64,000 nucleotides of DNA, taken from Arctopsyche grandis. Taxonomy: Eukaryota; Arthropoda; Insecta; Trichoptera; Hydropsychidae. Made by a program: the position numbers and the translations under genes. Positions 4,891-51,275 of the stretch are shown piece by piece. The notes beneath the pieces are model-generated. The model was not told the origin of the DNA. It did no database searches and saw nothing but the letters and a program-made list of their open reading frames with translations. Every line of letters begins with the position of its first letter. Position 1 is the stretch's first letter. The stretch covers positions 7,006,001-7,070,000 of the forward strand of contig NC_135360.1 in the NCBI RefSeq assembly GCF_051622035.1, read 5' to 3'.

Positions 4891-6122
4891 TGTGGCGGCT
4901 CGCTTATACGACATGGTCGAGTTTGGTTGCCTTCCTGCGAGTGGGGACCAACCCGGCTGGGTTCGGAGAGCCGCTACTCACTCTGTCTTCAGCTGTCATA
5001 TAATAAACACGTGCATTAACATGCCAGTCGTCTTGTGGCGGCTCGCTTATACGACATGGTCGAGTTTGGTTGCCTTCCTGCGAGTGGGGACCAACCCGGC
5101 TGGGTTCGGACAGCTGCTACTCACTCTGTCTTCAGCTGTCATATAATAAACACGTGCATTAACATGCCAGTCGTCTCATTCGTTCATCCCCTATACTGGT
5201 GACCCCCGACATCGAGCCACGCAGCCTCGATCAATTTCAACATGCCGCTCATCCCTGCCTCGCCGAGCCAGGCGGGAGAAGCTACCCGCCGCGCCCCCAT
5301 CGCCATCAACACGCGTCGCGGCCCGCGGGTGACAATAAACGAGCAGACACGGCTACCTACCTATCTACCTATCGACTGGAGTCCAGCCACAACGTCGACG
5401 ACAGGTGTTTTTAAAAAATGGGGGAGCGAATGAGACGACGATCTTGACAGCTGGATGTGGAGTCATGCGCGATCCACTACACATAGAACGGTCATCCAGC
5501 ACCACAAGACATACACCACCTCAGCACCATCATCATCATCATCATCAAGGCCCCGTCCGTCCCCACGAGCGTCGTCACGCCGAGACGGGCGGTAGCGCTA
5601 CAACACCTCCACGAGCCACAACGACTCACAGTCCAGCTCGGAGTATCATCAACCACATCGATGCCCCTGCCGCCCCCGCCGCCCCACCAACCGACATCAG
5701 CCTCGGAAGAGCGGCGCCGCCGCAGCATCGCATCCATCGCCGACCATCGGACCAGCCACCGTCCTGCTCGCGACGTCACCGCCCTCGAATGTACCGACCA
5801 TTCAGGGCGGATGAATACCTACACAGCGGATGACCCACGTCAACAATTTTTTTCTCCCCACCCAATAATTTTTTTGCTTTTTGTGTAACAATAACCTTTT
5901 TTCTTTTGTAAAATTTGTTTCTTTGTAATTTTGATATCGCTGATGCTGGGGGGGGAGTGATGTGGCGGCTCGCTTATACGACATGGTCGAGTTTGGTTGC
6001 CTTCCTGCGAGTGGGGACCAACCCGGCTGGGTTCGGACAGCTGCTACTCACTCTGTCTTCAGCTGTCATATAATAAACACGTGCATTAACATGCCAGTCG
6101 TCTCATTCGTTCATCCCCTATA
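4891..6122 (+). mobile_element. TRIM-like short LTR retrotransposon with a third, tandem LTR
   Basis: Two LTRs of 162 bp, at 5034-5195 and 5961-6122, read the same and start TGTGGCGGCTCGC. The first is followed at once by a primer-binding-type sequence CTGGTGACCCCCGAC; the second is preceded by a purine tract of G residues (about 5947-5960). Each LTR carries an AATAAA signal. A further LTR copy, 4891-5033, is joined head to tail upstream, which is the usual product of LTR recombination. The inner part of about 765 bp is too short for gag-pol and is rich in His, Pro and Arg codons, so the element is non-autonomous. The primer site fits Ty3/gypsy or BEL elements. Matching LTRs mean a young insertion. 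Confidence 0.8.
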
Positions 6123-24860: not shown

Positions 24861-25942
24861 TTATGTAGTTTTATTCCAGAATGCATTTTTTTTATGTACC
24901 TTGAGGTAAGATTTTTTAGAAAATGATTTTGAACAAACGTTACATTTGTGTGGTTTTATCCCAGCATGCAATTTTTTATGTTGCTTGAGGTTAGATTTTT
25001 GAGAAAATGATTTTAGACAAATTTCACACTTGTAAGGCTTTTCACCCGAGTGATTTTTTAAATGTCTGACAAGTGTACTTTTTCGAACAAATGATTTTAA
25101 ACAAATGTCACATTTGTGTAGTATCCCAGCATGCAATGTTTTATGTTTCTCGAGACCAGATTTTTGAGTAAATGGTTTTAGACAAATTTCACACTTGTAA
25201 GGCTTTTCACCCGTGTGAGTTTCTAAATGTATGACAAGTGTAGTTTTTTGAACAAATGATTTTAAACAAATGTCACATTTGTGTGGTTTTATCCCAGCAT
25301 GCAATTTTTTATGTTGCTTGAGGTTAGATTGATCAGAAAATGATTTTAGACAAATTTCACACTTGTAAGGCTTTTCACCCGTGTGAGTTTTTAAATGTCT
25401 GACAAGTGTACTCCTTCGAACAAATGATTTTAAACAAATATCGCATTTGAACAGGTATTCTCCAGTATGTGATCTTTTGTGTAGCACAAGTTCGGATTTA
25501 TTGGGAAATGGCTTTAAACAAATTTCACTATTCTTTCGGTGAATTGTTGGTAGTGAAGGCTCATCGTCCCATATTACATCTTCCAAAAAAACTTCTTCAG
25601 TCTTGATCTTCAAGCAATCATCTAACCTCCGTTGAGACTTTTCGTTGCTTCGAAAACAAGCCTTTCGAAAGCTGATCAATAATTCCAGATTGGTTTTACA
25701 CGAAAGACACACCGTGTCTGGCAACCCATCGCTTCTTTTAACCTGCAGATGAAAAAAAGTAGGATCAAGCGGTGAGAAGAGTTAATCAATTGGGTCCACA
25801 ATAATTGTAACCTGTAACCAGCACTGACCTGAATTTGACAGCAGGTCCGAATGTATTGCTGCAGACGCTCTGGATGAGGATCGCCGAAGATGGAGATGGA
25901 AGATTCGGCCGGAGTTAATCCAAGACAAAGCCTGCACTCCAT
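24861..25942 (-). CDS. ZAD-domain C2H2 zinc-finger protein
   Basis: Two exons, 25942-25829 and 25742-24861, join in phase to 331 codons plus stop. The N-terminal ZAD (MECRLCLGL ... VCLSCKTNL) is split by the intron; it coordinates one zinc ion and dimerises these proteins in insects. Six regular C2H2 fingers follow (about residues 175-320) with TGEKPY and AGIKPH linkers. A first finger has Ser in place of its first Cys (NSEICLKPF), and the last lacks its second His, so both are degenerate. Fingers alternate between two types (KCDICLKSFV and KCEICLKSFS), which shows growth by two-finger duplication. It is probably a sequence-specific nuclear regulator; the target is unknown. No orthologue can be named, as ZAD genes turn over rapidly. 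Confidence 0.9.
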
Positions 25943-26043
25943 CGTCCCTGTATCGAACTATCGAACTCTGACAGCAACCGGACGACATCACCTTGCAAAT
26001 TTTTTTTTGGTCTAAATTTGGTACTAGTTATACCAGAGAAATG

Positions 26044-36100: not shown

Positions 36101-39100
36101 ACCATTATATTTAACTATGAATTAATTCAATTTAAATGCATGAAATAAACCAATCGAGTGATTCCCTTCGTAATGTTAAACTTTAGAAAAAAATATAATG
36201 CAGATAGATAGCCTTCAAATTGATGAAGTCAATTGATCAATGATAATTATTAGAATAATATCACGTGACAATATTATTTGTTAGCAAAAGTCACCTAAAA
36301 AATGGGAAAGAACATTTGCAACATTTGCAAAGATGACGAGAAATATCATGTGATTATTATTAATATTAGTCAGATGTAATGTCGATGAGGAGAAACAATT
36401 TAGCCACATGATGAATGAAATGTTAAAGAAACTTTGTGTCAGTTAATAATATCACCACCACAAGCACTTCACTTCCCCATTTTTGGTATGACTTCTACTA
36501 GCACGGAATAAAACTGATAATACAAAGGTAAACTATATCACTGGCTAATTACACATTTGTCTCTCACCTGACGTGATTGTTTAAATGTTCCTTTCGGCTG
36601 AAGTACTTCAAGCAGTATGCACAGCTGTACGGCGTCTCGCCCGTATGCTTCCTTTTTAGCAAATATAACCATATAAAGGTTTAAATTAACAAATTCTAGT
36701 TATTAAATTTTTAACACATGTGAAAAAGCTTATTTAAAAAATTTGTAAATTCTACTACGGTATAAAAATATCACTAATCAAACCAAGTAAAAGAAGTGAA
36801 ATGCGTGATGAATTACTCTCACAACTATGAATCAACAGTCTCGCTCTCATTTCAAGCGCAATTTATTCAACTGACACAAATTTTTTCGTTACAGAGTGTC
36901 AATGATGAACTTTTTGGTGAGTGCAGATCGAATGATGCAAATACGTTTCCATTAAATCCTTAAGATTTAAATTTAAAACAAGAACGCACGTTAGAATTAC
37001 GTACGTTTGTGCAATAATAATATAAAAAAAAAACAAAAAAAAAACCAACGTCCAACATGTAATAAACAAGCCAACCAGGCTCTTCATTCAGCTAACGCAA
37101 ATGTCTGCTCACAGTACAAAAGTTTAGTATGTAAAAGATGCTTGAACAATGAACGGTTCAAAGAGTTTTCACACGAACGAAAATAGCGATTATTTATTTC
37201 TAAATGAGGACTGCACAGAAACAAAAATACGAATGCAAAAAAATAAAACCTAATCTAGCGTATTCATTCAATACGGAACTTCTTCATATAAGAATAAGTG
37301 AGTACGGACAAAGAAAATTCACCTGATATGGTTCGTCAAATGTTCCTTTCTGCTGAACGCTTTCGGACAGTAGCTGCACGCGTACGGAGTCTCTCCCGTG
37401 TGTTTCCTTCAGATTGAAACAACAATTTTTAAGCTGCCGACATCAATTCAAACACAAACAACAGACGAAAATCGTACCTGACGTGATTGGTGAGATGCTC
37501 TTTTCTGGTGAAGGACTTTGAGCAGTAGGCACATCGGTGCGGAGACTCCCCGGTGTGTTGACGTACGTGGTTCGTGAGGTGCTCTTTGCGAGTGAACGAC
37601 TTAGAACAATAAGTGCACTTGTGTGGAGACTCCCCCGTGTGTTGTCGCACATGATTCACTATTGAAAAATCAAATCATATAGAATATACGTCCAATTATT
37701 CGGTGACACGACAACTCGTTCACAGATTTTCCGTAAACCGATGATGCGCTCCAGGCATTTCGTATACGGCCATCTCTTTCTCACCCCGTCTGTTCACCAT
37801 GATCTCGTTTAATCTGCCATTACGTATGCAGCCATCTCTTTCACAGACCGTCTGTTATCAGTGAACAGACGGTCTGTGAAAGAGATGGCTGCATACATAA
37901 TGGCAGAGTAAACGAGATCATGGTGAACAGACGGGGTGAGAAAGAGATGGCCGTATACGAAATGCCTGGAGCGCATCATCGGTTTACGGAAAATCTGTGA
38001 ATGAGTTGTCAGGTAACCCAATTATTCATATACGTACATAGAAGTAGAATGCATAGAATCGCTCTCAACCTCCAAAAATGTTGCTACAAAAACTATACAC
38101 GGCAGAGTTTGTTCATTGTTTGCTAAACTTCGTCTCTCTCTCTCTCTTTTGTCTCTCTTCTGACTTTCCGTCTCTCCCTTCGATGGCTCGCTTTTAGACG
38201 ATACTTTTGTTAACAATGACCATTCTATGCATTCTACTTCTACGTGTATATATATATATATGTATATACTAACCCAAATGATCTTTTCTGGTGAAAGCTT
38301 TTGGGCAATAGGTACAGCGGAAAGGTGTCTCTCCCGTGTGTTGCCGTACGTGGTTGACGAGATGCTCCCGCCTGGTGAACGACTTGGAGCAGTACGCGCA
38401 CCGATGGGGCGATTCACCTGTGTGTTGCCGCACATGATTTAATAAGTGCTCTTTACGGGTGAAAGTTTTGGAGCAAAAATCACACCGGTGTGGAGTTTCA
38501 CCTATTATTAAAAACGAAAACTAAAATGATAGTTACGCTGCTTAGAAAGAGAAAAAAAATTAAAATCATAAATAAGTAAGTACTATAGTATGCGATCATT
38601 TCACTACACACAAGTTCTGGCTTATCGTCGCAGTTGATCCTAGAAATTGTGATAGTGGCTTTGAGCGACATTCGTTACAAAGCACCCTGCCTACAAACAC
38701 CGATGATTTACTCATTGAATTATTAAAGGAAGAAAAATCGATCATTCGAATTCTATACAATATAAACCAAATACAAAAAAAAAAAACTATGACGCAATAA
38801 GCTAGAACTTTGTACTTTCACTACGATGTGCAGCGAGAGTACAGTGAGTGGACTTTAAACTGAACTATTTCACTATAAATAATTGAAAATGATATCTATC
38901 TCAATTATCTAGAATGAATCTAGACGTATGCATACGTGAGATATTTTGATTTTATAAATGTAATACGATAAAAATATTACTCGTGACTGAATGTTTCGAT
39001 CAAAATAGCGAGTATGCATACGTCGACGTTATAAAATGCACATAATATATAAGAATTATTTCAACCATCATCACAAAATGTCAGCACAAGCCAGCGATAA

Positions 39101-42100
39101 AATGAGATGTTTGATAATTACAATCAATATATTTTGCATATATTTGCGCCATTCTATGGGTTCAAAAGACTATGGACAGAAAGTAGGCCTTCAAATAAAT
39201 ATACAAAGTAGTACAAATTTACAATTCAATCTCATTGGAGACTATTTCAGTCGGATAGAAATCATAAAAACGTATGGAAAAATAAACGGAAAGTATTTTT
39301 AATGTAATCCTAGAACACCTATGTAAGAATAAAAATATTTATAACAGATTATTATTAATATAATGTTATGGCATACATTTCATATTTGAAGAAAACGTTG
39401 GTGCTTTAACAAAAATAAAAATTAAACTATGTATTTATAATGATAAATAAATACGGTGACATAACAAGTGGAACAAATATATATATAAAAAAAATAAGGC
39501 GAATCGAACCCACAGAAAAGATGCAAAATAATAAAAATATATTATATGTTGTGATTCAGTTAAAAAAACGAAAGAAATAAAAGGACTTTTGATATATAAC
39601 AGTAGCTTCAAGCTACGTATGTATAATAAGAATTGCTGTAGTATTATTTTTTTAACGCTAAAGTGAAACTGTGTCAAATAATCTCAATATCGAAGATCAA
39701 CTTTGGTCGTCAATAGAATAATGATCCACTGGTTTTTTTACCGGTGTGCCACATGATGTGATTGGTGAAGTGCTCTTTTCTTGTAAAAGACTTGGTGCAA
39801 ATCTCACATCGAAATGGTGTATCGTTAGTGTGCGAGCGCATGTGGTTAGCCAGATGCTCTTTACGGGTATATTTCTTTCCGCATATTTCGCAATGATGTG
39901 GAGTTTCGCCTGTGGAGCAATTTCAAAAGAGAATAAATACCTAACAAAACTAACACAATCGGACAAACTGTACAAAGACACCTATACGTATAACGAGGGG
40001 GGAGCTTCATCATTCTTACGCTACGAACTCATCTTTCATTTACTACTATATAATTGTGTTGTGACTTAATCAATGATTGCCAATTATTACATATATATCC
40101 AGTTCGGAAGGTCCTGTAAATTTACACGGTGTACACAATGAAATACTTTTTGTATACATTTGAGTTATTTTTTTAAAATATAAATTTTTATTTCAATTAT
40201 ATTGCATTCCCAGCATACGACAAATCTTTAGAACAATATAAATATTCTTTCTTCATCGAACTGTGGCTTTCAGTATGTAATTTTTTAAATGTATAAAACA
40301 GGTCAATTGTTGTGTGATTTGGAGGTTGATTTTTGCTCCATTTTTGAAATGTACTTATTTGGATAAACATAACCTGAAAATATCTTGAAACAATTAGAGT
40401 ATTCGTTCAGTGTTGTGTATGTATATTGACAAAGTGGCACAAAATTTTGTCTTGTTTTGGATCTATGTATTTGCATTTTCTGATATGAACATTATAAAAT
40501 TGAAATTCTTGAGAGTGGTGAGAACATTTTGACCGATGTTTACGATTCATCGTACAATTCCGACTTTGAAAATATTGCCAAATTTGAATAGCGTTAATGA
40601 TTTTACACATCGTCAGTATACTAGCAGAAAACGTAATGTTTTGAATTTATTATTCAAAGTATTAATAATGCTTTAGGTCACGAAATAGAGACCGTCAAAC
40701 TTCTTCAAAACAAGAATTTTTGATGTAGAGTTTTCTGCCATCATACTGATGATATATCATTTCATCAAATGTAGCGTTTATGTTCCTTTTTTTATTCGTA
40801 TGATTATATTTTAAATTGCAATTTTTATCAAAAGTTCTATAAAATATTATTTTCTCATACATATTTATTGGGGACGCGACAATTGGCGCAAGTCTAAAAG
40901 GTTCAACGACAAAATGTACCCGAAAATTAGTGCACTGACAAAATGTACCCGCGAAAAAAGGTTCACGCGACAAAATGTTCACGGAAATAATGTTCAAGCG
41001 ACAAAATGTTCAAAAATCCTAAATTTTCCTATTTTAATGGAAAAAGTAACTTTTTATTGTATTATATTTATGGATGTATATGGTACTTTTTATCGTATAG
41101 ATCGCGGATGTTATTAAATTAGTATAAATTACAGGTGTTCTCAACCGCACCAACATATTCTTATTTAAATTCAACAATTACATTTTAAGCGAATGTCATT
41201 GTGACTCATTGAATATCATTTTAAGATGTCATTGAATTAGTTTAAATGTTAGGGGTTCTTAGCCGTATCCAATATTTACTTATTTAAATTGAAAAAAAAA
41301 AATTCTAAACGTATGAACTGCAGATTACATTGAATTAGTTTATATGGCAGGGCTTCTCAACCGTCTCCAAAATTTTCTTTATTTCAAATGAATAATTTAC
41401 TTTTTATCGTATACATCGCGGGCGTTATTAAATTAGTGTAAATGACAGGTTTTCTCAACCGTATGCAATATTTACTTATTTAAATTGAAAAATAATAATA
41501 ATTTATAATTAACTTTAAAAATTTAGGATTTTTGAACATTTTGTCGCTTGAACATTATTTCCGTGGACATTTTATCGCGTGATCATTTTGTCTCGGGTAC
41601 ATTTTGTCAGTGCACTAATTTTCGGGTACATTTTGTCGTTGAACCTTTTGGACTTGCACCAATTGTCGTGTAACCATATTTATTGTTAGATCGCGATTAA
41701 TTTTTATTGAAAATAGAATAAAAAAAAAAAGTTCAGACTGCTTTGGTGTATAATATAAATACATATGTATAATTAAATCAAATGAAAACACTATTATAAT
41801 GGCCGAAAATTTTCATATGTGCATTGAAAGTTGGATGCATTATTTTTCAATATGGAGATTTTTATTATATGAAACAAAAGAAAGAAAAAAAAAACAACAA
41901 AGGAATGATGATTCAGTGGAAATATAATAATCGTAAAAAAAAAAACAAATGAAATCGGAATTTTTTTTCATATGGCTATTTAGATCAGCTTGGAGCGTCC
42001 ATCAGCGCGTATTGCGTTCGAAAAAGTATGCGACATTCAACGAATGACGGATGCATAGGAAGTAGAAGTGGAGGATAAAAAAAAGAACGAACGAAAAAAT

Positions 42101-45100
42101 AAATTGAAATAAAATAAAAAAAAAAGCATCGCATCGGAATTGCACAGTCGAGGAGTTGCAGCGTACGTGTAGGTGTAGGTGTAGGTGTGGGTGTGGGTGC
42201 GAGAGTGTATTCGTGTCGTGCGGTTCGCATGTAATGGCGGCGGGGCGAGGGGTGGGGGTCGATACTGACTCTTGATTCGCTGCGTCTCCACCACCAGCAT
42301 GTCCTCGGAGGTGAGGACGTCCACGAAGATGACGGGTTTGATGTCGGGGGGCTCCATGGGCGCGGCCGCGGCGCCCGCCTTCGTGTCCATTTCGCGGCGG
42401 CGGCGGCGGCGGCGGAGGGGAGTGGCCGGCGGGGAGCGGCGGCGGCGGCAGCGGAGGGGGACGCGCGCGGGCAGCTGTCAGCGGTCGGTTCCACTGTTGC
42501 CACCACCACCACTCCACTCCACTCCACTCCACTCGAATTGCACTCCCCGCTCGCTCGCTCGCTCGCACACACACACAAGCACGCACGCGAGCTGCGCGAT
42601 CGATTGGTAGCGCCGACACAGATCGATCGCCGAGACGAGCCGCAGCCGCAGCGACCGCTTCCCCCTCCCTTCCCTTCCCCTCCTAGCGCCACCCCCCCCA
42701 CGCCTCCACCCCTCCCCTTCCTTACTTTGCACTTTCCTTTGTTTTGTTTCGTGCTGAATACGCGCGTTCCATACGCTCAATCTTTTTCCCCTCTCTCTTC
42801 CATATAAAACGCACGTCTTTCACTCGGGAAGCTCCCCTTTCGAACTTTTTCGGAATATTTGTACGTTTGGCCGATACATTTTAATTTTGTTGCACGAGTG
42901 TGCACAGTTTTGCCAAAATAATCTAACCCACATTTTATATTATACAAAAATAAAATAAATCGAATTGCAGTGGGTAAATGGTTAACGAACTACTAGTCAT
43001 ATGTAAATCAGTCACAGGACAACCGGTCGCTCTAGATTGGTCACACGTGATGACCCGTCACACCCTAAAAATGTTCCCTAAAATCGATCAACCAGTTCTC
43101 TCGTGACCGATTTTAGGGTGTGACCAGTTTTAGTGTGACCGATCTAGAGCGACAGGTTGTCCTGTGACCGGTTCACATTTGACTAGTAATCACCGAACTG
43201 GGTAAATATCGTCAGTCCGAAAGTAAACATCAGAAGTTAAAATTTGTCTTTTCTATTCAATAGAAACGATTTAAGTTTGAACATGGTGAACACACTTCCC
43301 TGCAAGTGAAAAACGAAACTATTGCCGTGTGTCAACCGTAACTTGAACTAGACAAATGACATTTTTCTAGCGAAAAGAATGATTTTATTCGGAATGTATG
43401 CAATCGATAACTCAAAGATCGCTTTTTTTTGTGAAGTTTTTCTTCCGGACTGACGATATTATACTATTGTGGCTTCAGTGATTATTGCCTACAAAGCGCT
43501 CGCCCAAAAGTCACTAAAATCTATATAACGGAACATCTGGCAGCCGAAAAGTCAATCATACTAACGAGAACTCGACTGCTAAATATTCCATGTTCGCGAT
43601 TTTCATGACAAAAATTGTCTTTTGGGCGATCGCAATGTGCGTAATAATCCAATTACCACTATTGTGGGTTTGATTTCCTTGCACAACTCCATCATATTTA
43701 GATGAAATTTTATTTACCATTCTTCTAAGATTTTTTACACTAAAAATATTATAAAACATTATGAAACAATCGTTCGGGAATGGTAGAATAGAACTCCACC
43801 ACATATGGCAAAACGCAAAGTAACATAATAAAATAAAGTGACACAATTCCCAAAATTTAATTTAATTTGAACCCATCTCGCTTTATTATCACAGAATAAT
43901 TTAATATTCTTTCCACATGTTTTCCTCAAACTATGGATTTAATCTAAATTTATTTATGGATCATCAGCCTTACAACCATACAAAACCTTATGTACTGACA
44001 ATTTTATTTTAAATTTGAACCATGCAAATCTAATAATATTTATTAGTATAACAAAATTAATTACCCAAAGCAAAAACCATTATTATATAAGAAATAAAAA
44101 CATCACAAATAAAGGATTGAAATCACATCCTATTAAAATAATTCTAGGTAAAATATCAATGTCTTCATAATCAAAAAAAAAAATGTTTTTCTAAAATAAT
44201 TCAACAAACAAATAGTATCAATAATTATTTATACAGGATAAGAAATAAAAATACAAACCTGTATGCCACATAACGTGATTCATAAAATGTTCCTTTCTTG
44301 TAAATGATTTTTTACATATATCACATCTATGGGGCGTTTCTCCTGTATGCTTTCTTACATGATTTACCATATGTTCTTTACGTGTAAACGTTTTAGAACA
44401 ATATTGACATCTGCAATGGAAAATGTAATAAAAAATATATGTGCAATATACAAAAAAAAACAACAAACATTCTTTTTAGGTGAGAAAACACTATAAATTC
44501 CATACCTATACGGAGTTTCGCCTGTATGACTTCGAACGTGAGTATCTAAATGTTCTCTACGAGCAAAGGACTTTTGGCATGTATTACACGAATAAGGTTT
44601 ATCTTGGGAATGGCGTTTCATATGTCTATCTGTTGATGAAAAATAAAAAATAAAATTAGACATTACGTTCATTATCCAATTCTAATTAAATAAATAAAAC
44701 GTCAATTACCAAGACTAGGTGCATTGGCAAATACATGGAAACATATGACACAAGTGAACATAGAACCTCCTAAATGGCATTTTCCATGCCTAGATAAGTC
44801 TTCGGCTGAAGTAAATGCTTGACCACACACTTGACAAGTAAAAGGCTTCTTTTCTGCATGATATCTCCTATAACAAGAAAAAAATGTGTATAGCAACTAT
44901 TTAGTTTTGCATCATCAATACTTTACATTGGACATGACTGAAATACCTATGAACAATTAGTTGATATCGGAATTGAAACATTTTTCCACACAGTTCACAA
45001 GAGTGAGGTCCTGCAGAACCGACAGACGGAGGACTACTATCTGGTTCGGATACATTGCTGGTTCCAGCTTCGGCTTCAGATTCCGACATGACCTACAACC

Positions 45101-48100: not shown

Positions 48101-50647
48101 ATGGTGTGCCCAGGAGGCCCACACGCTGCAGTGGTATATGATGATATGATCTATTGACTCTTTAATATTTACAATACAGTTCACAATGTCATAATATTTC
48201 CAGCTGTGATTAATATTTTTCAATGGATTTTTGAAAGCTGCAGTTACTCCTTGATTTTACAATGGCTGTAGAAGTGAAGTAGTGTTTGGTGAACAATGAA
48301 CAATCGTCATGAAAAGTATGCTGTTGCTATGCAAGATTTTAACGTTAATTTTTTCAGTTTATTTTGGACTATGGATAATCCATACTGTATGTAGATAAAG
48401 ATTTAAAGTACTATATGATTAAGAAAACTACAGTAAAAGTACTACTTCCAGGTGAGGTAAAAATAAAAAAAAAACGCATGTGTACGATTTTTTACTAGGC
48501 TTTTCACAAGCCTCATTTATACCTACTCCATGTAAAAAGTTTCAAACTAATCCTTTAAGCGGTCTGGGAGATAATTGATTCCAAAAAAAAGGAGACCTAT
48601 AAGGGGAGGTACTACTCCCAGTTAACCTAAAAATTTAGAGCGAAATGATAAACATTTCAGTAACTGGTACTAAGCTTCGGTCTGATAGGACTAAGAGCGA
48701 AAACACACTGAGAGGGACTCGAGATGTGTTTTTTTTAAAGATATTTTTGCACATGTAAAAAATCACAAGCACACATAGCCATTCAGGAAGCCTGCAATCC
48801 CAAAAATCAGCCCCTGGAGTGTTTCTGGCGATATTTTATCCTTATATTGACAGTGACTGTGAAGAGATCTAAGAGACACTTGTCGAAATAATAAGGCCCT
48901 ATGAATTAACAATGAACTGGGAATGCCCTTCCTTAGCTGGAAGCCACAAAGATGTGCTACGCTCTTTTCTTCAGTGTGTTTTCGCCGTTATGGTGTTTAA
49001 ATTATATCCAAAATACACATACACATATTTTCTAAACCATGAAAACGTGATCAGTGATTGATTGAGTTCAAATCAGTCAAAATCTTAGTAGAATTTTTAA
49101 CTTAGTCGAAAACTTATCTAGTGTCACTATGTACATAGATAAAGTAAAATTTGAAATACATACATATATAAATTCATTTACGATATTTTCTTAATCGTTC
49201 ATGTTTGGATGAGAATAATTGAAGTGAAGTTTTCAACTGATTGGACAATGTGGTTACAATTTTAGCCAATCATCACAATTACAGTTTATTCAAATCACAT
49301 TATGTTCAAATAAAACAAAGGAAAAAAAAAAAAAACAAGATTGAATTTGAGATTGATATTATAATTTTTCATTTTCAAATCGTCGCAAGTATGATTCAAA
49401 AACACATAAAATCAATAGCTGTTAGATCAGTACTTGCGACACTATTAAGTACTTCACATCTGAAATTTAAAAAAATTAATACTGTTGATATACTGGCAAA
49501 AAATACTTTCACTGCGAATAATATTTGTAGAGAAAGCAAAATACAATATAATACATATATATGTGGGCATTCATTTTTATAGTTTTGATGCATTGCAAAA
49601 GGTCTCGACAAATTGAATTATCAAGGTGTGAAATATGATCTGTGGGGGCATTCATTTTCATAGTTATTATTCAGGCATTCTAAAAGGTCTCGACAAATTG
49701 AATTATCAACATGTGAAATGTCTTCATAGATTTATGCATAGGAATAGAAAAAAAAAGCAATATATTCAAATTCTGCTAAATACGATCTACAAACATTACG
49801 AAAAAAAAAAACAAAAGATGAAATAATTTCAAAAGTACTCAATCGAATAAAAATTAAAAATAAAATAAAAACAAAAGAAAAAATATTACATGAATTTCCG
49901 AACGTTCATCGTAATGTTCTTGCATTATCGAACGTACTTGTAATCAGTATCATTTATTTTCGGCAAGTAACAAATGAACAAACAGCAACAGAATATAAGT
50001 TGACGTTTACATCGATGGGCGGGGAGTGGGTGGGGGTGAGGGTGAGGGTGGGGCGAGGGGTGCGGGGAGCGACAATGCGGTAAGAAGCAGAGCAGACAAT
50101 GGTGGCTGTACGAACGGGCTCCGTCTCGTCACGTCTCGTCTCGTCTCTTCCCGTCTGAAGGCTGAAGCCTGAAGCCTGAAGTGTGAAGAAGTCCGACAAT
50201 TTGTTTACGTCTGCGGAGGCAGGAGAGAGAGCGGAGAGCGAAGAGCGGAGTGCGGAGTGCGGAGTGCGGAGAGTGGAGTGGAGTGAGAGGGGCGCGCAGT
50301 CGGCTCGGCTCGGGGCGGTGGCGATCGATCGGGCGGGGTCGGGGGGCGGGGGCGGGGTGGGGTCGGGGGTGGGGTGGGGCGCGGCGCAACCAACGCGTTT
50401 GACAGCCGACGCACGGCCGCCAACCTCGGCCGCGATACAAACGCACAACAACACACAAGATGGAGGACGGGCGCCGGGTGTGGGGTGGGGTGGGGTGGGG
50501 TGGAGGTGGGGGTGGGAGGGGCAGGCTCACCTCGTCTTCCGCTTCCGCGTCCGGCTCCGACTGGTGGTGCTGGTGCTGATGCGGGTGCGGGTGCTGGTGA
50601 TGGTGCAGATGGTGGTGGTGGTCGTGATGCGCCCCGTGCTCGTTCAT
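33142..50647 (-). CDS. crol: crooked legs (crol) orthologue, 21-finger C2H2 transcription factor
   Basis: Twenty-two exons join in phase to 1105 codons plus stop: 50647-50531, 47040-46852, 46783-46576, 46193-46105, 46022-45933, 45848-45687, 45608-45411, 45335-45162, 45092-44947, 44867-44710, 44629-44506, 44410-44259, 39909-39742, 38501-38274, 37658-37478, 37406-37323, 36651-36568, 36086-36003, 34634-34467, 34382-34222, 34146-33893, 33240-33142. The start [13 protein letters not shown] is the first in-frame ATG. A His-rich, then Gln/Ser/Thr-rich N-terminus (to about 500) precedes 21 C2H2 fingers, most of the form C-x-x-C-x-K-x-F-T-R-K-E-H-L-x-N-H. The C-terminal fingers ([36 protein letters not shown]) match Drosophila Crol closely. 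Crol is a nuclear, ecdysone-responsive regulator of leg development, cell cycle and adhesion. Exons follow finger borders, many with symmetric phase. Confidence 0.9.
33241..33892. other. Last crol intron, or alternative 3' end
   Basis: If the donor at 33892 is not used, reading continues 12 codons into this stretch ([11 protein letters not shown]) and stops at 33857-33859. A short hairpin, CCCTGTCGGCTAA / TTAGCCGACAGGG with a loop of about 30, lies at 33521-33576. A T-run at 33822-33845 marks the opposite strand of an A-rich tract. Confidence 0.5.
34635..36002. other. crol intron 18; no feature recognised
   Basis: AT-rich. A diffuse inverted relation is visible between about 34975-35110 and 35740-35850 (AATCAATCTTTACGAAGTTT / CTGGGTAAAGATTGATTAGT and flanks), so an old MITE of about 880 bp may lie here. 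No coding frame. Confidence 0.45.
37692..38027. mobile_element. Hairpin MITE in crol intron 14, with 10-bp target duplication
   Basis: Element 37702-38017: two arms of about 150 bp pair almost perfectly around the centre near 37858 (CACAGACCGTCTGTTATCAG / CTGATAACAGACGG-like). The flanks CCAATTATTC (37692-37701 and 38018-38027) are a perfect 10-bp direct repeat. Long arms and this duplication length suit a MULE-type foldback. Confidence 0.9.
38036..38247. mobile_element. MITE with GTAGAAGTAGAATGCATAG ends
   Basis: The left end ATAGAAGTAGAATGCATAGA and the right end TCTATGCATTCTACTTCTAC are inverted repeats of about 22 bp. A CT-rich tract (38128-38175) lies inside. It begins only 9 bp after the neighbouring hairpin MITE, in the same crol intron. 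Confidence 0.8.
40861..41685. mobile_element. Long-TIR element with 10-bp target duplication and internal repeats
   Basis: Element 40871-41675, flanked by ATATTTATTG on both sides (40861-40870, 41676-41685). The arms are about 165 bp and made of short direct motifs (CGACAAAATGTACC, CGACAAAATGTTC, AATTAGTGCACTGACAAAAT). Between them three or four diverged units of roughly 120 bp repeat (TTAAATTAGT...CTCAACCG...TATTTAAATT). No coding frame. It is in the 4.3-kb crol intron 12. Confidence 0.85.
42200..42760 (-). promoter_or_regulatory. GC-rich island with simple repeats upstream of the alternative crol exon
   Basis: GC content rises sharply against AT-rich surroundings. It holds CGG repeats (42392-42415), a CCACT repeat (about 42505-42535), CGCT repeats (about 42549-42568) and a short CA run. 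Frames read here on both strands are low-complexity artefacts apart from the exon at 42270-42390. It probably contains the transcription start of the short crol form. Confidence 0.55.
42270..42390 (-). CDS. crol: Alternative first coding exon of crol (internal promoter)
   Basis: ATG at 42390-42388 starts [20 protein letters not shown] followed by [20 protein letters not shown], then a canonical donor (A|GTCAGT at 42269). The exon is 121 bp, so it ends one base into a codon, exactly the phase needed by the next crol exon (39909-39742, which begins with two bases, GC). Joining would give [14 protein letters not shown] and a short protein with fingers 7-21 only. It lies in a CpG-rich island (about 42200-42700) inside crol intron 12. 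A separate gene is less likely, because no other open exons lie downstream on this strand within the window. Expression evidence is absent. Confidence 0.65.
42971..43207. mobile_element. Hairpin MITE family E, copy 3, with 9-bp target duplication
   Basis: Element 42980-43198: ends ACTACTAGTCATATGTAAAT and TTCACATTTGACTAGTAATC; inner arms hold GGTCGCTCTAGATTGGTCAC and its mirror. The flanks TGGGTAAAT at 42971-42979 and 43199-43207 are a perfect 9-bp repeat, as for MULE elements. Confidence 0.9.
43204..43465. mobile_element. MITE with AATATCGTCAGTCCG ends
   Basis: AAATATCGTCAGTCCGAAAG on the left pairs with CTTCCGGACTGACGATATTA on the right. The ends then continue as weaker inverted matches (ACATCAGAAG / TGTGAAGTTTTTC). 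It adjoins family E copy 3; the latter may have inserted at its edge. Confidence 0.65.
47450..47565. mobile_element. Small MITE in crol intron 1
   Basis: GTACGGACCCAAAGCGCGCC with TTGTTCAATTGTT on the left pairs with AACATTTGAACAAAG and CGGCGCGCTCTGGGTCCG on the right. About 115 bp, no coding capacity. Confidence 0.65.
47830..48150 (+). mobile_element. LINE reverse-transcriptase C-terminal fragment
   Basis: The plus strand carries, in broken frames, the familiar tail: [19 protein letters not shown]...MSDEFWT, then RQEKK...PSMNQIDR and [13 protein letters not shown]. This is the WKWAGHVAR...W...RPRWADDI...W region of RTE-like LINE polymerases. It is dead and 5' truncated, inside crol intron 1. 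Confidence 0.7.
48660..48985. mobile_element. MITE-like element, related to sequences at 29.8-30.7 kb
   Basis: GAGCGAAAACACACTGAGAG near 48696 and TCAGTGTGTTTTCGCCGTTA near 48972 are inverted ends. Inside lies AAATCAGCCCCTGGAGTGTT, shared in reverse with the repeats near 29805 and 30682. Confidence 0.6.
48986..50100. other. crol intron 1, proximal part; local duplication only
   Basis: AT-rich. A direct duplication is visible: GTGGGCATTCATTTTTATAG / GGGGGCATTCATTTTCATAG with AAAGGTCTCGACAAATTGAA downstream of each (49562 and 49647, about 90 bp apart). No gene. Confidence 0.5.
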
Positions 50648-50921
50648 CTTGCGGTCGCGGGGCTCCCCTCTTCCCCACCCCGCCCCGCCGTTGCCGCTCC
50701 CCGCGGTTCTCTTTCGCCGCTCCCCTCCACGGTGGCCAACCGACCCGCCGGCGAACAAACGCGACTCCGCCTCGCCCACCACTCGATAGATGGCGTCGGT
50801 GCAGGTCTCTATTTTACCGACGACTCGGCCCGACGCGTCCCATTCAAATATCGCCAAGTCTTTCAAACTATCGTACGAGTTCGATTGATCAGCTTAGAAA
50901 CCACGGTAAACGGTTTGCCAT

Positions 50922-50933
50922 CCCATATATAAA
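50922..50933 (-). promoter_or_regulatory. TATA-like sequence upstream of crol exon 1
   Basis: TTTATATATGGG on the minus strand, about 280 bp before the proposed start codon. No initiator stands at the expected 30-bp distance, so this is weak; it may be chance or the edge of the adjacent MITE. Confidence 0.25.
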
Positions 50934-51275
50934 GGTCTGAACGCACTATGCGTCAGTCGACCGATACGACACGACACGTCAGTACGCGACCAAATATTGT
51001 TTGTATGAAATTGTATGAGACTCACTACGCGTCACGCGACAGATTTGCCTTTTGTATCAACTTTGCCGTGTCGTGACTGGCGCATTTTGTATCAACTTTG
51101 TCGGCCGACTAGTTGCGCGACACGAAAAAATGTATGGAAATGTGTGCGACAAACAAGTTGACGGGTGTGGCATGTCCCATCTACCTGCATGCATTGGTCT
51201 GGTCGCCCTCAACCAAGTCGCTCGCAAGTCGCACGGTGCGGCCCGGCCCATAGTGCGTTCAGATCTCAAGCCCAA
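50933..51275. mobile_element. MITE with AGGTCTGAACGCACTATG ends
   Basis: AAGGTCTGAACGCACTATG on the left pairs with CATAGTGCGTTCAGATCTC on the right. The body is rich in CGCGACA and GTCGTG motifs in both directions. It lies just upstream of the crol first exon and its TATA-like sequence. Confidence 0.8.

Follow-up and report, generated by a model that had tools for sequence, protein, structure and literature searches.

A putative internal first coding exon in the largest intron of crol in Arctopsyche grandis (Trichoptera: Hydropsychidae)

Introduction

Does the crol gene of Arctopsyche grandis have a second, internal start, from which a shorter zinc-finger protein could be made? The question is raised by a GC-rich stretch in an intron of the gene, for which an original prediction, made from the sequence alone, had proposed an internal promoter and a phase-matched alternative first exon. 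The window, the whole stretch of DNA that was analysed, comprises 64,000 nt (assembly GCF_051622035.1, contig NC_135360.1, positions 7,006,001 to 7,070,000 of the forward strand), and all coordinates given here are positions within it. In Drosophila, ecdysone regulates Crol, a poly(G)-binding repressor that has been linked to Polycomb recruitment and to the control of wg (PMC10325914; PMC2647916), and that is described as a wg repressor (PMC2647916). We have examined whether the proposed exon carries a coding signal, where that signal ends, to which exons it could be joined and what kind of protein would result.

Results

The crol gene model

Read from the genome sequence, crol is modelled on the minus strand with 16 exons and 15 introns (the short form named in the lines below is the product predicted from the internal start).

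50647-50531, minus strand: E1, presumed usual first coding exon, assigned to crol by strand, phase 0 and position
47040-44259, minus strand: E2-E10, together the N-terminal part and fingers 1-6
47040-46852, minus strand: E2, N-terminal part, absent from the short form
46783-46576, minus strand: E3, N-terminal part, absent from the short form
45848-45687, minus strand: E4, absent from the short form
45608-45411, minus strand: E5, absent from the short form
45335-45162, minus strand: E6, absent from the short form
45092-44947, minus strand: E7, absent from the short form
44867-44710, minus strand: E8, absent from the short form
44629-44506, minus strand: E9, absent from the short form
44410-44259, minus strand: E10, absent from the short form
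39909-39742, minus strand: E11, fingers 7 and 8, acceptor in phase 1, likeliest splice partner for the candidate exon
38501-38274, minus strand: E12, fingers 9 and 10 with most of finger 11, acceptor in phase 1, an alternative to E11 as partner
37658-37478, minus strand: E13, phase-1 acceptor
34634-34467, minus strand: E14, phase-2 acceptor
34382-34222, minus strand: E15, phase-2 acceptor
34146-33857, minus strand: E16, last part of finger 17, all of finger 18 and the genomic stop, presumably the last exon

E4-E16 read through as a single open frame, which encodes 769 residues and 18 C2H2 fingers, and the single array of 18 fingers expected of a crol orthologue was found, as 18 motifs of the form C-X2-C-X12-H-X3-4-H with the fingers in E7-E16. 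A stretch of 21 residues presumably resembles Drosophila Crol, with which an orthologue would be expected to share its sequence, including a conserved stretch before finger 1. The finger count corrects the original prediction, in which a short Crol kept fingers 7-21; with 18 fingers in the array, the set retained would be 7-18. Nor is the N-terminus Gln-rich, as had been claimed: in the three parts measured among the N-terminal residues of E1-E7, Gln accounts for 7.8%, 8.7% and 7.2%, and at 7-9% Gln the loss of an activation region by the short form is unsupported. The same number of tandem C2H2 fingers, 18, is given for Drosophila melanogaster Crol isoform PA (PMC10325914), although PA is a long form (962 aa), unlike the predicted short form.

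The introns of E2-E10 are 68-95 bp long, except for that between E3 and E4, and the candidate exon lies, as originally stated, in the largest of the 15, the E10-E11 intron of 4349 bp. As drawn, the frame is broken between E3 and E4 (46576-45848, minus strand), which suggests that a small exon is missing from the model or that the donor is a different one; for E3, a phase-0 GT following 46595 would be a possible choice. The E10-E11 intron also holds an inverted-repeat element (40869-41676) with two 159-nt arms, 93% complementary and 490 nt apart, and with many ACAAAATG/CATTTTGT units; it looks like a small transposon. Genome-wide, C2H2 zinc-finger frames are very numerous and often clustered, with at least 274 matches (150 scored of 6130 first-look candidates).

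A coding signal within the intron

The candidate exon and the GC-rich island with which it was compared are as follows.

42270-42390, minus strand: proposed alternative first coding exon of crol, 40 codons plus 1 nt, phase 1
49951-51000: the other GC-rich island, which holds E1

The frame runs for 121 nt from the ATG at 42390 to 42270 and is followed by GTCAGT, and the predicted open exon with an ATG, a 40-residue peptide and a phase-1 end is thus present. Another ATG follows in frame at 42357, and upstream of the first one the frame is open as far as 42477. The sequence is also non-repetitive, as had been claimed: in the whole genome (475.7 Mb, 189 contigs) the peptide was found once, as itself, and the surrounding island is single copy, with one partial match of 68 bases (80%) elsewhere, which speaks against a repeat or mobile origin. 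Searches for relatives were negative within their scope. The 40-residue peptide gave 69 and 9 pattern matches, none of them relatives, in genome_contigs and viral_contigs, which are prokaryote and virus collections without insects, so that such misses carry no information on conservation; the exon alone had no Pfam match at E <= 1, and the peptide a single chance-level match in the PDB (E 0.39, a G-protein gamma subunit); the exon joined to two fingers gave nothing above the cut-off in NCBIfam; and a text search of the literature with a 12-letter piece of the peptide found no paper.

The open frame in itself is no evidence of coding, because 3000 dinucleotide shuffles of the interval 42760-42200 yielded 2993 that contain an ATG frame of at least 29 codons on either strand. 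Such frames would be expected if the stretch were a GC-rich intronic regulatory element, or a promoter for a non-coding or antisense transcript, with the frame a by-product of composition, and the G-run tracts and simple repeats of the island would suit that reading as well. What argues against it is the bias between codon positions. In the last 29 codons of the candidate exon, GC at positions 1, 2 and 3 is 0.62, 0.24 and 0.93, so that GC3 exceeds GC2 by 0.69. When the letters of the exon were permuted 20000 times, neither this difference nor the heterogeneity among codon positions (G = 44.6) was ever reached, and the difference was likewise never reached when the island (42760-42200, both strands) was put through 3000 dinucleotide shuffles. 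Differences above 0.6 occurred in 3 of the 18 GC-rich stretch-strands (at least 55% GC per 300 bp; two of the 18 without an ATG frame of 29 codons) in 264 kb made up of the window and twenty 10-kb genome pieces; these were the candidate exon and both strands of the E1 island, and the next-highest value was 0.34. The flanks of the exon are without this bias, with values of 0.85/0.90/0.90 upstream and 0.67/0.67/0.54 over the next 24 codons downstream. A bias that goes beyond composition, is confined to one frame and is missing from both flanks makes a purely regulatory element unlikely.

The extent of the signal was examined by a search for the best coding segment in the ATG frame under 192 parameter sets, which were chosen after the exon had been seen. 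The 3' end fell at 42271 in 87 sets and at 42280 in another 83, which together make 170; a further 14 sets placed it at 42262, so that 184 lie inside 42262-42280, and the remaining 8 put it far downstream. The start was divided between the ATG at 42390 (66 sets), the ATG at 42357 (61) and the frame edge at 42477 (65). In 184 of the 192 sets the coding signal thus stops at the proposed donor or no more than about 10 nt from it, while its start is less sharp. The median segment score was 16.8 for this frame against 3.5-6.9 in the other five, one of which scored up to 22.4 under single parameter sets. The frame has both the start codon and the codon-type composition expected of a coding frame, and we consider it likely that this is a real coding exon.

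Donor site, phase and splice partners

The proposed splice donor was compared with those of crol itself.

42264-42272, minus strand: proposed weak donor, AGA/GTCAGT (the slash marks the junction, after 42270), scored with the crol-donor matrix

The matrix was built from the 15 crol donors (that of E3 being doubtful), with one pseudocount per base and with the myosin exons left out. The site had been described as canonical; it is weak, with a score of 1.0 that lies below all 15 crol donors (4.5-10.4, or 2.1-9.5 leave-one-out) and is equalled or exceeded by 46% of the 7123 GTs in the window. Among the crol donors, G stands at -1 in 14 of 15 and C at +3 in none. A stronger site, CAC/GTACGC at 42167, scores 7.3 and lies in the same open frame, in phase 2, about 100 nt past the end of the coding signal; further along the frame, at 42093, is a phase-1 GT with a score of 3.0.

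These scores bear on whether the exon, if a real coding first exon, uses another donor (42167, phase 2) or a partner outside crol, such as a nested or downstream minus-strand gene. The weakness of the 42270 donor and the score of 42167 favour such an arrangement, but the coding signal stops near 42271, after which the codon bias is gone, rather than near 42167. A donor at 42167 would, by its phase, be unfit for the acceptor at 39909. As for a partner outside crol, inspection of the ORF list by eye revealed no other exon on this strand that looks coding from 42270 to where crol ends, and a zinc-finger gene near 24861-25957, the next one noticed on the minus strand, has an ATG of its own. We think either arrangement improbable.

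The phase match that had been proposed with the acceptors at 39909 and 38501 holds, and those at 37658 and 34146 fit equally; phase 1 is compatible with E11, E12, E13 and E16 and incompatible with E14 and E15, and the chance of such a match is one in three. E11 is the simplest partner, since its acceptor is the nearest. Joined to E11-E16, the candidate exon reads open for 438 aa, with a new 40-residue N-terminus and 12 fingers (7-18); joined to E12 onward it would give 382 aa with 10 fingers, and to E13 onward 306 aa with 7 fingers. That it might instead be an internal cassette of the long form, inserted between fingers 6 and 7, or the remnant of an exon now dead, is most unlikely. The frame is open upstream of the ATG, but none of the AGs in 42740-42391 gives the phase-1 acceptor in an open frame that a cassette between E10 and E11 would need, and the stops expected of a dead exon are absent, though 40 codons is a short stretch in which to expect them.

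The GC-rich island

A promoter for the candidate exon would be sought in the sequence preceding its ATG.

42391-42760, minus strand: GC-rich island preceding the ATG, presumed to serve as promoter and 5' untranslated region

GC content is 59% in 42001-42500 and 51% in 42501-43000, against 36% for the window, and the corresponding CpG observed/expected ratios are 1.47 and 1.41, against 1.16. Of the CpG-rich island in the original prediction, the GC richness is borne out; the CpG argument is weak, because CpG is undepleted across the window. On the minus strand there is no ATG from 42757 to 42391, which is matched by 2.75% of letter shuffles; given that the plus strand of the same interval is also free of ATG, and that for a start at 42600 the chance of an ATG-free upstream stretch is 0.23, we dropped this leader as evidence for a promoter. 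In 42200-43000 there is no TCAGTY or TCATTY initiator, only one looser TCAGCA at 42757, and the sole strict TATA is a TATAAA at 42939. The promoter marks of the island are modest.

The codon usage of crol changes across the island, GC3 rising from 45/190 (24%) in E7-E10 to 142/244 (58%) in E11-E14 (Fisher P = 3e-13), a step that holds within the residues C, H, K, E, F, T, N and R; it drops again to 57/148 (39%) in E15-E16. The change is partly regional, since the GC of the adjoining introns also rises, though less (20-32% beside E7-E10, 29-42% beside E11-E14). The step is consistent with a separately transcribed 3' block of crol, short of proof.

G-run tracts

One part of the island was singled out for its runs of G.

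42661-42730, minus strand: G-run-rich tract, candidate Crol-type poly(G) site by analogy with Drosophila (PMC10325914)

When 70-mers on both strands of the 264 kb were ranked by bases in G-runs, this tract took rank 4, in a sample that holds few other GC-rich islands. Ranks 1-3 lie at 49998-50521 (plus strand), in and beside the E1 island. The same 264 kb contain 16 places with runs of eight or more G. A pattern in which three G4 runs are separated by gaps of 1-5 has 32,809 matches genome-wide (16253 + 16556, overlapping ones counted) and 17 in the window, of which 15 are in the first-exon island, one is at 42242 (plus strand) and one at 5685; the tract at 42661-42730 has no match to it.

Discussion

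Of the readings compared, the best is that the candidate exon is the first coding exon of a crol transcript from an internal promoter, and this is probably what it is. It is favoured by a coding signal that runs from or near the ATG to near the donor, by the absence of an in-phase acceptor for a cassette exon in 42740-42391, by crol exons that offer the nearest compatible downstream acceptors, and by the interruption of an otherwise compact gene, just here, by its largest intron. The original prediction of an alternative first exon of crol thus keeps its coding frame and its phase, and loses its donor strength, its finger count and its Gln-rich activation region.

Transcription would start on the minus strand within the GC-rich island, at about 42400-42760, and the new exon would be spliced to the crol acceptor at 39909. 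The predicted product is a Crol of 438 aa in which 40 new residues replace the usual N-terminus and fingers 1-6 while fingers 7-18 are kept, and which should still bind G-rich DNA, either competing with the long form or acting apart from it.

An abstract by D'Avino and Thummel of 1998 on Crol isoforms is said to give isoforms with 12-18 fingers, and in the literature searched we found no description of a Drosophila Crol form that starts at finger 7. The closest parallel is experimental: an MBP-Crol fusion carrying Drosophila fingers 7-16 was found in EMSA to bind both a 20xG fragment and a G-rich site of natural origin, from a Polycomb-response element (PMC10325914). Crol peaks in Drosophila are there reported to be enriched for G-rich motifs, with prediction pointing to fingers 4-15 (PMC10325914). 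Since fingers 7-16 suffice for poly(G) binding in vitro, DNA binding is to be expected of the short form as well, provided that the two arrays are colinear, in which case the fusion has nearly the same finger set; it is, however, an artificial fragment that lacks the 40-residue N-terminus and fingers 17-18 of the predicted protein. The expectation that a short Crol would bind related DNA sites is thus strengthened by the Drosophila data, unlike the idea that it would be without an activation region.

The dense G-run tracts in both crol islands suggest, by the same analogy, that Crol may feed back on both promoters. Against this stand the 16 places with long G-runs in the DNA sampled, the genome-wide frequency of the three-run pattern, its absence from the tract at 42661-42730 and the small number of other GC-rich islands in the sample. 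As these tracts are found in both places and the short form would keep the G-binding fingers 7-18, one can imagine a self-limiting two-promoter switch, in which the short form rivals the long one both at the two promoters and at targets of the Polycomb type and in which the new N-terminus may bring a partner surface of its own. Looking at that N-terminus after the fact, we take VIFV followed by acidic residues to resemble a SUMO-interaction motif, while IKSE, which would arise through the splice, is presumably a SUMO-site-like sequence. We offer this switch as a conjecture with a low probability of being right.

A first exon of this sort is known in kind and new in place. In dystrophin, BAI1/ADGRB1 and p53, an internal promoter likewise provides a first exon that is joined downstream, with N-terminal domains dropped, although these are other genes, related to the crol case in general logic only. 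Among the matches listed in our literature searches, none dealt with an internal crol promoter. If the reading proposed here is correct, an internal promoter would free the DNA-binding fingers of Crol to work with another N-terminus, as a simple built-in antagonist or a retargeted form, and antibodies, knock-outs or RNAi directed against the N-terminal part of Crol would miss the short form.
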